NCBI GenBank assembly: GCA_011050655.1
Contig: DRFG01000124.1
Span: forward strand, 1-41,537
DNA from: Roseobacter sp.
GTDB lineage: Bacteria; Pseudomonadota; Alphaproteobacteria; Rhodobacterales; Rhodobacteraceae
Direction of reading: 5' to 3'
Length of the DNA: 41,537 bases
Shown here in pieces: positions 32,219-40,883 of the stretch. The notes under the pieces are model-generated. The model was not told where the DNA came from. It saw only the letters and a program-made list of their open reading frames with translations, and made no database searches. The position numbers and the translations under genes were made by a program. Within the stretch, counting starts at the first letter, position 1. Each line of letters starts with the position of its first letter.

Positions 32219-33136
32219 TCAGAATGCGTAATTTATGCGCACTGATCCTACAATTTGGTCGTCTGGCTGGGTTGAATATTCCTTACCCAACCAAGTCAGC
32301 CCATAGAATGCCGATAGCCGTTCGCTTTGCCAATGAACGCCCATCCGTAACCGCTTTCTTTGGTTGGTCAGTACGTATCCGCGATCACGTGGCAAATAGG
32401 TGCTTGAACTGACATGGGCGATGTCGGCCCCTACGACCCAGCTAAAGCCAGTCACGTCGTCGTTTTTAATCACGCGATAGCGATGACCGGTGGTCGTATC
32501 ACGGACCAGAAGCTCTTGTTGGCCGACACCACCGATGGTGAGATCGAAACCAGCGCGGACCAGATCCTCAATGCCTACCTGCGCTTCGACAAATGGCCGC
32601 AGACTAGTCGTGGCCCCGAAATCGAACCGCCGCCCGGCTTCGATCAATACCGTCGGATAAAATCCATTACCAATTTGTCCGGCAAGGGTGCGATCAGATG
32701 GCGCGGGTGCGCCGATCAGTTGATGAAATTCCTGCTGCAACTCGCCCAGTTGAGTTTGGGGTCCGGTGGCATAGATCGACGCACCCATCGCGAATTCGAT
32801 GCTGTCACGTTCGAAATGCGTATGAACGCCAACCGAAAGCGCACCTGCCCAAGGCCGAGACCCCAGCCTGGGGTTATTCAAGCGATCCGGTGCCAATACC
32901 TCCAACCCGAAGCGCAATTCCACGATGGCACCGGCTGCATGCGGCAGGTTCCCATCCCATTCCCGGCCCCACACCCGCGAGGAAGAGAACGACCCCGTAC
33001 GTTCACGGTCTCTTAAATCACCAAGCAAATCGTTATTGATCAAGCGCCCATACCCCAGCCGGGTAAGCTCAGCCCCGCTGGCGCTGAATGGTACAGTCAT
33101 CAGGCAGATCAGTATGACAGTTAAAGATCGAAACAT
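32219..33136 (-). CDS. LpxR-family (DUF2219) outer-membrane protein
   Basis: 305 residues with a Sec signal peptide (LTVILICLMTVPFSASG-AE). The mature part has the early Asn-Asp pair and DRERTGSF segment, alternating beta-strand patterns, and a C-terminal aromatic end (VGSVRINYAF) typical of an outer-membrane barrel. It resembles the lipid A 3'-O-deacylase family LpxR/DUF2219; LGELQQEFHQLIGAPAP is also familiar from that family. Whether it is an active deacylase cannot be told. Start at 33136: GGAG is 5 bases before this ATG. Divergent from the winged-helix gene. Confidence 0.72.
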   Translation of the reverse strand: MFRSLTVILICLMTVPFSASGAELTRLGYGRLINNDLLGDLRDRERTGSFSSSRVWGREWDGNLPHAAGAIVELRFGLEVLAPDRLNNPRLGSRPWAGALSVGVHTHFERDSIEFAMGASIYATGPQTQLGELQQEFHQLIGAPAPSDRTLAGQIGNGFYPTVLIEAGRRFDFGATTSLRPFVEAQVGIEDLVRAGFDLTIGGVGQQELLVRDTTTGHRYRVIKNDDVTGFSWVVGADIAHVSSSTYLPRDRGYVLTNQRKRLRMGVHWQSERLSAFYGLTWLGKEYSTQPDDQIVGSVRINYAF

Positions 33137-33222
33137 CATTACTCCGAAGATTATGTGGCCGTCCCATGCCATTTGGAGGGAGGCGATCGAGATTCGCTAG
33201 ATCAGTGATGGCAACTTATTGC

Positions 33223-38586: not shown

Positions 38587-39108
38587 TTATTTATCCCGCA
38601 ACGCGCCGATGATATGGTCGAACGCCTCGCGGGCTTTGACCCGCATTTCTTCGTCCGTGGCATCCTGTATCGGATGCGGCACCAGCACGTAACGTGCCCC
38701 TTCCATGCCTAACGCTTTGCGTTGCGTTTCAGCAGCTTGGCCAAACGCGCTGGACGCGATGGAAACTGATGGGATCCCCTGGATTTCAAACCAGACTGTA
38801 TCGTGCATACTGCACGTGGTACATGATCCTCAGTCCGCCAACCCTTCGACCAGAAAATCGCATTCGTCGCGAATTTGCTGGCGCAGCGTGTCTGGGCAGG
38901 GCTTGGCGAAGGTCGGCTTGGTATAGTGCCGCACTTCAACGCCCGGTGCTTTTTCGGCCAGTAATTTGCCCAGCTCATCTAACAAGATATTGCCGCGCGG
39001 CTTGCTGATATTCAGCAGCCCCACGATACCTTGCACTGCCCCGGACCGTTCACTGATCTGACGCGCGACGGGCACGCGTTCGTCCGTCGGGTCGAGAATT
39101 ATGGTCAT
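38587..39108 (-). CDS. UGSC-family selenoprotein (in-frame TGA = selenocysteine)
   Basis: One 173-residue frame from ATG 39108 to the stop at 38587, broken only by a TGA at 38832-38830. Read as selenocysteine it gives Sec93 in LAD-U-GSCTTCS, the signature UGSC of the UGSC family, with Cys96 forming a UxxC redox pair and Cys99 close by. Both sides of the TGA are in the same frame and are coding in character: VGLLNISKPRGNILLDELG before it, PSVSIASSAFGQAAETQR after it. Read conventionally it would look like two genes of 92 and 73 residues. AGGAGGAG precedes the ATG. It follows the thioredoxin-fusion gene by 27 bases and lies 1.7 kb from tRNA-Sec. Reaction unknown; a thiol-selenol redox role is inferred. 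Confidence 0.9.
38797..38832 (-). promoter_or_regulatory. Bacterial SECIS-like hairpin with its UGA codon
   Basis: On the minus strand, 18 bases after the TGA (38832-38830), comes the 5-base loop AGTAT (38811-38807) on a perfect 5-bp stem CGTGC/GCACG. Below an asymmetric internal loop (CCA opposite A) is a further 4-bp stem TGTA/TACA. The distance and a G in the first two loop positions fit the known rules for bacterial SECIS elements bound by SelB. The element lies within the coding frame, as in bacteria. Confidence 0.75.
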
Positions 39109-39135: not shown

Positions 39136-40725
39136 TTAGCCTAGATAAATCTTTCTGGATACGGAAATTGATCCGGCGGCACCGGTAGACCACCCGTGAA
39201 ACGCTGACGAAAATTTACCTGCCTCGCCCCCCGCCACGACGATATGAATGTACTCCTTACCCGCGAATTTCGGAGCAAGTAGCGCCAGTTTTTCAGGCCC
39301 CATCTTATCGGCATCAGCCACCGATATGCCCGCGCCGGATTGGTCATTCTGGACCATTTCGCTCAATGGGCGCGACGTGACTGCCTGAATCCGGTCCCGC
39401 AGCCGGTCTTTTGAATAGTCGCCATCGCGGGTCATCGTTTTGATATGTTCAGGGCACACGACCAACAGTGCATCCACTGGCAGGTTGTGCAATTTCGGCA
39501 GAAACACAGATTCTAGCCCCTGACCGAGCGACCCGGCAATCTGATCGGGCTTTCGCGATGTTTGGTCGACAAGATGCACCGGGCCACCGGTCATTGCAAA
39601 TATCGTGACCACTGAATCCTCGGGCTCAAAGCCCCGTTCGACATGCAACGGTTCCCACGGTGACACTTCCTCGTTCTCGGCAAAGCACATCGTGAATTTC
39701 ATCGGATTACCCAAGGTGGAGCGTTCGACACCGCCGGTTTTCGCGCCGCCAATGTTTCGAATCACAAGACGCAAGGCACGACCGATGGTGGCATTGGCGC
39801 GATTGCCCGCGCCCATTGCTCCTAGCCCAGCGTTCATCCCTATCTTGTCGCGGATAGGGCCGTTTACGACCATCACAGTCGCCGCCCCCATCGTGGTGGC
39901 CGTGACCCCGTGAATATTGAACTCATCGGTACACACGGCTTCGATGGCCGCAATGACGACAGGCAAATATTCGGGCTTGCACCCTGCCATAACAGCATTG
40001 ATAGCAATTTTTTCTACGGTACCGACACCCATATTCGGCGGAACGACTGCAATCACGTCTTGCGGATCTCGGTGGGTACCTGCCAGCATCCGCATCACCC
40101 GTTCGGGCGTCGGTGGGACCAACGGCAGGCCGTCGGAAAAACCCTGATCAAACATGAACTCGGATACATCATCACCGCTAGCAACCTCGACTTTGCGGGC
40201 GAGCAGCACATCACCGTCAGCAGCGGCACGCAGCTTGTCGTATACCTCGGGGTCAAAATGTTTCGACCCGCAGCCCGGACGCCAGGCCGGCAGACTGTCC
40301 CAGTCGATTTGGGCGACAGGTTGTCCGGTGTCTTGGGCAATCTGATCCGACAGGGCCTTCCAGTCATCCCGCACGAAGCCTTCAAAATGCGTGACAACGG
40401 TGCCGCTATCGTCGATCCAATAAACGGCTGGCACGATTTCGAAATTCCAATCAAACGACGTCTTGCACCCGACGTCATCCAGCACTGGCATGGTCAGACC
40501 GTGGCGCCGCACAAAATCTGCATTTGCATCGCCCGATTGCGCGGGAACCAATACGGAAACCTTGTCGCCATAAGCTTGGGTTAAGGCTTGCAGCACCGGG
40601 GCGGCTATATTGCAGGTTTCGCAGTCCTCTTTGACAAAGCAGATCAAGCTTGGGCCCGTCCCATCGAATTGATGTGCCTCGCCATGCAGATCTTTCAACG
40701 TGAAAGCCGGTCTTGCGTCGGTCAT
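39136..40725 (-). CDS. Thioredoxin-domain fusion protein, partner of the UGSC selenoprotein
   Basis: 529 residues from the ATG at 40725, which has GAGAGG 7 bases upstream (a reading from 40755 adds ten residues). Residues 1-140 form a thioredoxin/peroxiredoxin-like domain with CETC (Cys35, Cys38) and cis-Pro99 in EIVPAVYW. A second short motif GCGSK (Cys152) follows. From about 185 to the end is a large domain I cannot name (SDGLPLVPPTPERVMRMLAG, VEKIAINAVMAGCKPEYLPVV, GMNAGLGAMGAGNRANATIGRALRLV). No signal peptide. Directly upstream of the UGSC gene, so probably its redox partner or the other half of one enzyme. Function unproven. Confidence 0.8.
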   Translation of the reverse strand: MTDARPAFTLKDLHGEAHQFDGTGPSLICFVKEDCETCNIAAPVLQALTQAYGDKVSVLVPAQSGDANADFVRRHGLTMPVLDDVGCKTSFDWNFEIVPAVYWIDDSGTVVTHFEGFVRDDWKALSDQIAQDTGQPVAQIDWDSLPAWRPGCGSKHFDPEVYDKLRAAADGDVLLARKVEVASGDDVSEFMFDQGFSDGLPLVPPTPERVMRMLAGTHRDPQDVIAVVPPNMGVGTVEKIAINAVMAGCKPEYLPVVIAAIEAVCTDEFNIHGVTATTMGAATVMVVNGPIRDKIGMNAGLGAMGAGNRANATIGRALRLVIRNIGGAKTGGVERSTLGNPMKFTMCFAENEEVSPWEPLHVERGFEPEDSVVTIFAMTGGPVHLVDQTSRKPDQIAGSLGQGLESVFLPKLHNLPVDALLVVCPEHIKTMTRDGDYSKDRLRDRIQAVTSRPLSEMVQNDQSGAGISVADADKMGPEKLALLAPKFAGKEYIHIVVAGGEAGKFSSAFHGWSTGAAGSISVSRKIYLG

Positions 40726-40788
40726 CTTTGCGCCTCTCAAATTATGCATTTGCATAGTGTGAGGGATCGCAAGCCATGTCCAGACAGT

Positions 40789-40883
40789 TGGCGGAAGTGG
40801 ATGGGAATCGAACCCACCACACGCCTTATCGACGCGTCCGTGGTTTTGAAGACCAGGGAAGCCACCAGACTCCAGTCACCTCC
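40789..40883 (-). tRNA. selC: Selenocysteine tRNA (anticodon TCA)
   Basis: 95 bases, the unusual length of bacterial tRNA-Sec. The 5' strand GGAGGTG pairs with CACTTCC before G73 and an encoded CCA (40791-40789). Anticodon loop CTTCAAA carries TCA on a TGGT/ACCA stem. There is a long variable arm (GGACGCGTCGATAAGGCGTG region) and a T-arm TGGG-TTCGATT-CCCA. The eighth acceptor pair expected in tRNA-Sec would be A-C here. It lies 41 bases after selB, the usual selB-selC neighbourhood. Confidence 0.95.

Follow-up and report, generated by a model that had tools for sequence, protein, structure and literature searches.

UGSC ranks among the more common selenoprotein families of ocean surveys. According to the passages that concern it, the family had 255 sequences in the 2008 ocean set and made up 8.2% of the selenoprotein genes in the 2021 set. 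The parts of PMC2398784, PMC13188914, PMC9312934, PMC9402790, PMC5330540, PMC5029168 and PMC7539508 that deal with the family speak of a UGSC-containing or UGSC-motif protein and give no function, and a 2026 review, in its section on such families, calls their functions largely uncharacterised. In its passages on UGSC, the 2008 ocean survey (PMC2398784) suggested a thioredoxin-like fold and described a conserved domain, 'Unknown_1', joined to UGSC as a fusion; apart from this fusion, the UGSC passages of these papers name no partner. The second system to be considered here is that of proline and glycine reductase, which is treated in part of PMC1088965; the relevant part of a review describes PrdB as homologous to GrdB and as selenocysteine (Sec)-containing in some bacteria. 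Among literature titles, mainly of non-subscription papers, none was found on the function of UGSC or on a relation between UGSC and PrdB.

We analysed a stretch of 41,537 nt from Roseobacter sp. (GCA_011050655.1, contig DRFG01000124.1); the whole stretch is referred to below as the window. The UGSC gene in it is a typical and well-supported member of a selenoprotein family known in print since 2008. Like the family described by NF041046 and PF24696, it scores above both curated cut-offs and has Sec or Cys in U-G-S-C, and nothing essential sets it apart. What differs is its setting in a block with tRNA-Sec, selB (and selA in relatives) and a partner gene (Table 1).

Table 1. Features of the UGSC block in the window.
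Feature	Position	Strand	Evidence
UGSC-family selenoprotein gene	38587..39108	minus	173 codons + TAA; PF24696 E 3.4e-48; NF041046 176.2 bits
TGA codon = Sec93	38830..38832	minus	one TGA in the homologue of 19/36 genus genomes, own included
U-G-S-C motif (UxxC)	38821..38832	minus	no change at U/C93 or C96 across 35 rows, archaeal plasmid homologues among them
SECIS-type hairpin, 5-bp stem, 5-nt loop AGUAU	38802..38816	minus	conserved stem and loop GU
Purine-rich ribosome-binding site 5' of the UGSC start codon	39113..39121	minus	sequence reading
Partner gene, 539 aa (true start may be the ATG at 40725)	39136..40755	minus	AhpC-TSA E 5.6e-7; thioredoxin-like and conserved C-terminal domain
C-E-T-C redox motif, thioredoxin-like domain of the partner	40612..40623	minus	C-x-T-C in 31/33 partner ORFs > 430 aa
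Cys of the P-G-C-G-S motif, between the two partner domains	40270..40272	minus	PGCGS in 31/33 partner ORFs > 430 aa
Partner C-terminal domain, about 375 aa	39139..40263	minus	AlphaFold model, mean pLDDT 86.0
tRNA-Sec gene, anticodon TCA	40789..40883	minus	ARAGORN; Rfam RF01852 72 bits, E 5.5e-13
selB 3' part, cut by the contig end	40925..41515	minus	SelB-wing_3 E 1.2e-14

The UGSC gene and its in-frame TGA

The initial annotation proposed that two in-phase frames split by a single TGA encode one UGSC-family selenoprotein. Translation with the TGA read as Sec reproduced the gene boundaries, the length of 173 aa, U93 and the motif U-G-S-C-T-T-C exactly as proposed, and the portion up to the TGA was a 92-aa open reading frame. 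The family assignment was borne out by profile searches, in which the joined protein reached 176.2 bits on NF041046 (the NCBIfam equivalog for UGSC; residues 29-170, curated cut-off 125) and 164.4 bits on PF24696 (Pfam UGSC; residues 4-170, curated cut-off 25). The 92-aa piece 5' of the TGA scored 57 bits on either profile when searched alone, below the NCBIfam cut-off, so the gain to 164 and 176 bits on joining the pieces is more than chance. The accompanying view that gene calling would yield hypothetical proteins or a truncated gene was overstated: among 11 plasmid records with a UGSC homologue (four of them haloarchaeal), four carried the name 'hypothetical protein' and one was unannotated, but six were named 'UGSC family (seleno)protein'.

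Homologues were counted in a set of 60 related genomes that includes the source genome; 36 of the 60 are from one genus. The UGSC homologue was present in 19 of these 36 genus genomes, each time with exactly one internal TGA, and genome G046 held four homologues, again with exactly one TGA each. One further match, in G040 (22.5 bits, three stops), was taken as spurious and excluded from the counts. In a class sample of 289 genomes, UGSC was found in 28 genomes at 71 places, with up to eight copies per genome; 70 of the places had one in-frame TGA and one had none. Thirty of the 71 places were inspected singly, and the TGA lay at the motif column in 29 of them (L043 and L051 included), with Cys in the remaining one, L050. 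Thus every locus inspected in this way had TGA or Cys at the column of U93. Neither homologues that end at the TGA, nor a column lacking Sec and Cys, nor an erroneous TGA, any of which would have spoken against the proposal, was found. A scan of named genomes gave 27 Cys-type loci, whose titles belonged to Pseudomonadota, Bacteroidota and Actinomycetota; the query carried Cys in place of Sec, so that only Cys-type forms could be found. Some UGSC matches in the class sample sat in open frames of about 500-715 aa. Separately, variant UGSC proteins with the motif C-U-G-S-C-T-P were seen in long open frames adjoining divergent partner copies (L051/L100 and L099:9482-10030).

When the window gene was compared with six relatives, dN/dS ranged from 0.06 to 0.18 in the part preceding the TGA and from 0.04 to 0.17 in the part that follows it (base 48 onwards). 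The single-TGA and Cys homologues, together with a dN far below dS after the TGA, show that the frame is translated through, and a sequencing error is very unlikely given that the identical TGA recurs in 19 genomes of the genus.

The hairpin and the selenocysteine-decoding cassette

In the window, 13 bases separate the UGA from the stem of a SECIS-type hairpin. The complete stem was present in 34 of 36 distinct Sec loci, compared to a mean of 8.9 and a maximum of 16 in 500 trials of a synonymous-codon null, for which the codon usage of five window ORFs was applied to all genomes. Cys loci, too, paired more often than expected from their null: 8 of 26 did so, where the null had a mean of 2.2 and a maximum of 8. 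The loop separated the two types completely, as its second and third bases were GU in 36/36 Sec loci and in 0/26 distinct Cys loci. AGT accounts for 10% of the Ser codons in nine window ORFs, and where the loop of a Sec locus encodes Ser the codon was AGT in 30 of 30 cases; the remaining six encode Cys by TGT. Folding of the window sequence alone was no better than that of shuffles (z -0.4 to -1.2). Covariation was limited to one pair (G-C/G-U/A-U), with a score reached by 27 of 500 shuffles; it is weak because four of the five stem pairs are invariant in the 26 rows. Judged from these sequence comparisons, the predicted SECIS hairpin straight after the UGA is conserved beyond coding need.

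The tRNA-Sec gene and selB were found where the initial annotation had placed them, within 2 kb and on the same strand; about 1.8 kb lie between the selB 3' part and the UGSC gene start. The Sec machinery of the genome itself comprises tRNA-Sec and part of selB in the window, selA on another contig and a selD match. Across the genus, selA (TIGR00474) was present in exactly the 19 genomes that bear UGSC and in none of the other 17. The same 19 genomes had a tRNA-Sec match above 69 bits, and the other 17 had none above 50 bits; some weaker matches in the 17 still pass the Rfam gathering score of 47, and these were taken to be other tRNAs because second matches of the same size occur in genomes with a strong one. 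In 17 of the 19 genomes, selA, tRNA-Sec, the partner gene and UGSC lie on one contig and one strand within at most 6.3 kb, and in the other two, G000 and G016, selA is on a separate contig. In loci L083 and L084, selA, selB, the partner gene and UGSC follow one another on one strand, and L083 has the whole selB. Unlike selA and tRNA-Sec, SelD was found in all 36 genus genomes. The best SelD matches in these genomes lay mostly in open frames of 720-850 aa, including in genomes without Sec machinery, which is consistent with the Ndh-SelD fusions described in part of PMC2398784. No TGA was seen in the genus among the formate dehydrogenase matches listed.

Two other genomes, G042 and G049, had selA and tRNA-Sec and no UGSC. 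In G046, with its four TGA-type UGSC genes (L020, L022, L023 and L024), neither selA nor a tRNA-Sec match above 46 bits was found. This is probably a gap, because the genome is 77% complete; an unusual tRNA-Sec is possible.

Taken together, the sequence evidence indicates that the in-frame UGA, with its 3' hairpin and the tRNA-Sec and SelB encoded upstream, almost certainly inserts Sec93 into a UGSC-family protein. A broken gene, in which the TGA is a genuine stop or results from faulty sequencing, can practically be discarded, since no support for it was found and it is contradicted by the single TGA that the homologues of 19 genus genomes each contain, the purifying selection 3' of the TGA, the SECIS-type hairpin and the co-inheritance of selA with tRNA-Sec.

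The partner protein and a possible relation to PrdB

The gene directly upstream of UGSC encodes a partner protein with a thioredoxin-like and a C-terminal domain. This partner, like the SECIS hairpin and the possible PrdB link, goes beyond the initial annotation. With a profile of its C-terminal domain, the partner was located beside UGSC and in the same orientation at all 57 loci examined, usually upstream and in some cases downstream. These loci were the 27 Cys loci, 19 chosen stretches of Sec-type genomes and the 11 plasmid records; 25 of the 26 rows in the profile came from 23 of the 57 loci and one from the window, with none from the 11 plasmid loci. The partner and UGSC also occurred in the same 28 of 289 class genomes and, with the G040 match excluded, in the same 20 of 60 relatives. 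The thioredoxin domain was missing from some partners of UGSC paralogues. The C-terminal domain of the window copy matched no Pfam or NCBIfam family, its 26 members gave only stray single matches to these collections (E 0.02 or worse), and a comparison with the PDB gave no sequence match and no convincing structure match. By this co-occurrence, UGSC and the partner very probably form a constant two-protein unit. In this respect the pair resembles the UGSC/Unknown_1 fusion, as described in the relevant passage of PMC2398784, where UGSC is likewise tied to a conserved domain of unknown function.

An AlphaFold model of UGSC from 23 sequences (mean pLDDT 91.8) showed strands and helices alternating throughout, with residue 93 directly preceding the helix 94-109. 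Structure searches with the model returned generic alpha/beta folds. The elements of the thioredoxin fold follow the order b-a-b-a-b-b-a, with two adjacent strands. The order in the predicted UGSC model differs, which argues against the thioredoxin fold proposed in print.

Profile comparison pointed to PrdB and GrdB. The E-value was 0.034 for a narrow UGSC alignment against PrdB/GrdB with distant PF07355 sequences, 0.00086 after four annotated plasmid PrdB proteins had been added, and 5.9e-6 (probability 85%, score 44.3) when the UGSC alignment was widened; each value represents one comparison, and the relation was clear only with the widened alignment. In the alignment, U-G-S-C coincided with C-G-T-C of PrdB, where C may stand for Sec, and stretches with G-I-P and H-P-I were also aligned. 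As controls, column shuffles gave a maximum score of 22.2 in 120 trials, the reversed alignment 18.8 and 28 unrelated families a maximum of 24.5; the four Bacillota PrdB proteins alone gave 39.2. PF07355 (GrdB) was found in 0 of 23 UGSC members by a Pfam scan at E up to 1, in which the HMMER filters discard most matches above an E of about 0.1. The partner, compared as a candidate PrdA/GrdE-type proprotein, showed no similarity to a PrdA-type alignment of four sequences (E 0.84). Because PF07355 is absent and the partner is unlike PrdA, the likeness to PrdB is confined to UGSC, and we therefore call UGSC a remote relative and not a member of the PrdB family. The two share aligned active sites, a UxxC motif and, according to part of the literature, Sec in some PrdB proteins; they differ in that UGSC has about 173 aa, no PF07355 match and a partner unrelated to PrdA-type proteins. 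On these alignments UGSC would be a remote relative that may work like PrdB.

Open frames of 312-326 aa with C-P-[VI]-C that match the end of the GrdB profile were also observed (L102-L106; five of 299 phylum genomes), and two plasmid relatives of these frames carry the NCBI name 'glycine/sarcosine/betaine reductase selenoprotein B family protein'.

Gene neighbours and possible functions

A TrxB-like protein was encoded in the flanks of 13 of the 57 loci, a raw count that includes several closely related loci (Methylobacterium); identity was at least 42% in 10 loci, one of which supplied the query, and 32-38% in three. None was found in the genus loci L083-L085. An Arthrobacter plasmid had the order trxB-trxA-partner-UGSC, and trxB was near the UGSC pair on Roseovarius and Variovorax plasmids. 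In five Bacteroidota loci, an amino-acid permease, a 3-hydroxyacyl-CoA-type dehydrogenase and a beta-keto acid cleavage enzyme were beside the pair, with the families named from L059 only. An aconitase-X-type protein, its family again named from L059, was present in four of the five (L059 474-2285; likewise L057, L065 and L068) and resembled cis-3-hydroxy-L-proline dehydratase with 178.6 bits, below the cut-off of 700. Locus L118 (1708-3770) contained genes of the ornithine cyclodeaminase and dihydrodipicolinate synthase families, and the locus also held a semialdehyde dehydrogenase family gene. The aconitase-X and L118 genes give a hint, no more, of proline-like substrates, which would fit a relative of PrdB. 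Plasmid loci encoded tripartite/TRAP carboxylate transporters, CoA transferases and isocitrate lyase/PEP mutase-type enzymes, and stress and metal annotations were few. Phosphosulfolactate synthase was annotated near UGSC on a haloarchaeal plasmid (L108 5488-5955) and on an Arthrobacter plasmid (L117 4582-5370), a possible hint at sulfonated substrates. Elsewhere in the window, at 32219-33172, an LpxR-like outer membrane protein (PF09982, E 1.2e-10) is encoded near the edd/eda sugar-acid genes.

On balance, we favour the view that UGSC and its partner form a thioredoxin-driven Sec reductase. UGSC would be the catalytic half and the partner encoded directly upstream the other half of a two-protein enzyme, so that UGSC would work as PrdB does with a different second subunit of its own. 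NADPH would supply electrons, which thioredoxin reductase would hand on to the partner's thioredoxin-like C-E-T-C domain or, where the partner lacks this domain, to a separate thioredoxin as carrier, and either of these would regenerate the Sec93/Cys96 pair. This electron path is suggested by the thioredoxin-like domain fused to the partner, its C-x-T-C motif, TrxB in the flanks and the gene order trxB-trxA-partner-UGSC. Sec93 would sit where a helix begins in a Rossmann-like alpha/beta domain and would attack or reduce a small organic substrate bound between UGSC and the partner's C-terminal domain. Where one genome carries several paralogous pairs, their substrates would differ, with carboxylates, amino or imino acids and CoA esters as the probable kinds. 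More tentatively, the pair could serve small-acid catabolism, as suggested by its neighbours: carboxylate transporters, CoA transferases, the beta-keto acid cleavage enzyme and the aconitase-X-type dehydratase.

The UxxC motif and the AhpC-TSA similarity of the partner's thioredoxin-like domain may also suggest an antioxidant, i.e. a peroxidase or disulfide reductase whose Sec removes peroxides or repairs thiols, as assumed for many UxxC selenoproteins. A review, in the part concerned, places UGSC among the thioredoxin-like-fold selenoproteins, and the pair has a universal stress protein annotated in its vicinity in L113 and L116, as well as a glutathione S-transferase in L115. We regard this role as unlikely, as the annotated neighbours in 10 annotated plasmid loci were mostly transport, catabolic or regulatory genes, up to eight paralogues per genome fit substrate diversity better, and the element order of the predicted model is unlike the thioredoxin fold. 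Somewhat less likely again is that Sec93 acts as a non-redox nucleophile in a lyase or transferase and that thioredoxin merely rescues oxidised enzyme; the beta-keto acid cleavage enzymes, CoA transferases and lyases among the neighbours and the replacement of Sec by Cys would fit such a role, but the thioredoxin-like fusion and the trxB neighbours suggest that the reductant is used stoichiometrically. Metal or metalloid detoxification with Sec binding the metal, as proposed for several other orphan selenoproteins in part of PMC13188914, is improbable: a zinc ABC transporter substrate-binding protein was annotated near the pair in L109, but the 10 annotated plasmid loci held no further metal-resistance annotation.

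The pair might even represent an unrecognised class of Sec/Cys-dependent, thioredoxin-driven catabolic reductases in bacteria and haloarchaea, in which the catalytic half is common to proline and glycine reductases and the second subunit is different. In the same tentative vein, the genus might keep its Sec-decoding system with, and perhaps only for, the UGSC enzyme. The gene is worth following for its partner, its cassette and its relation to PrdB. Since the gene pair is inherited together with selA and tRNA-Sec within one genus, it is also a good case in which to study gain and loss of the Sec trait along with a client. An orphan family becomes assayable once it has a constant partner, a likely source of electrons, a distant enzyme relative and gene neighbours suggestive of substrates.
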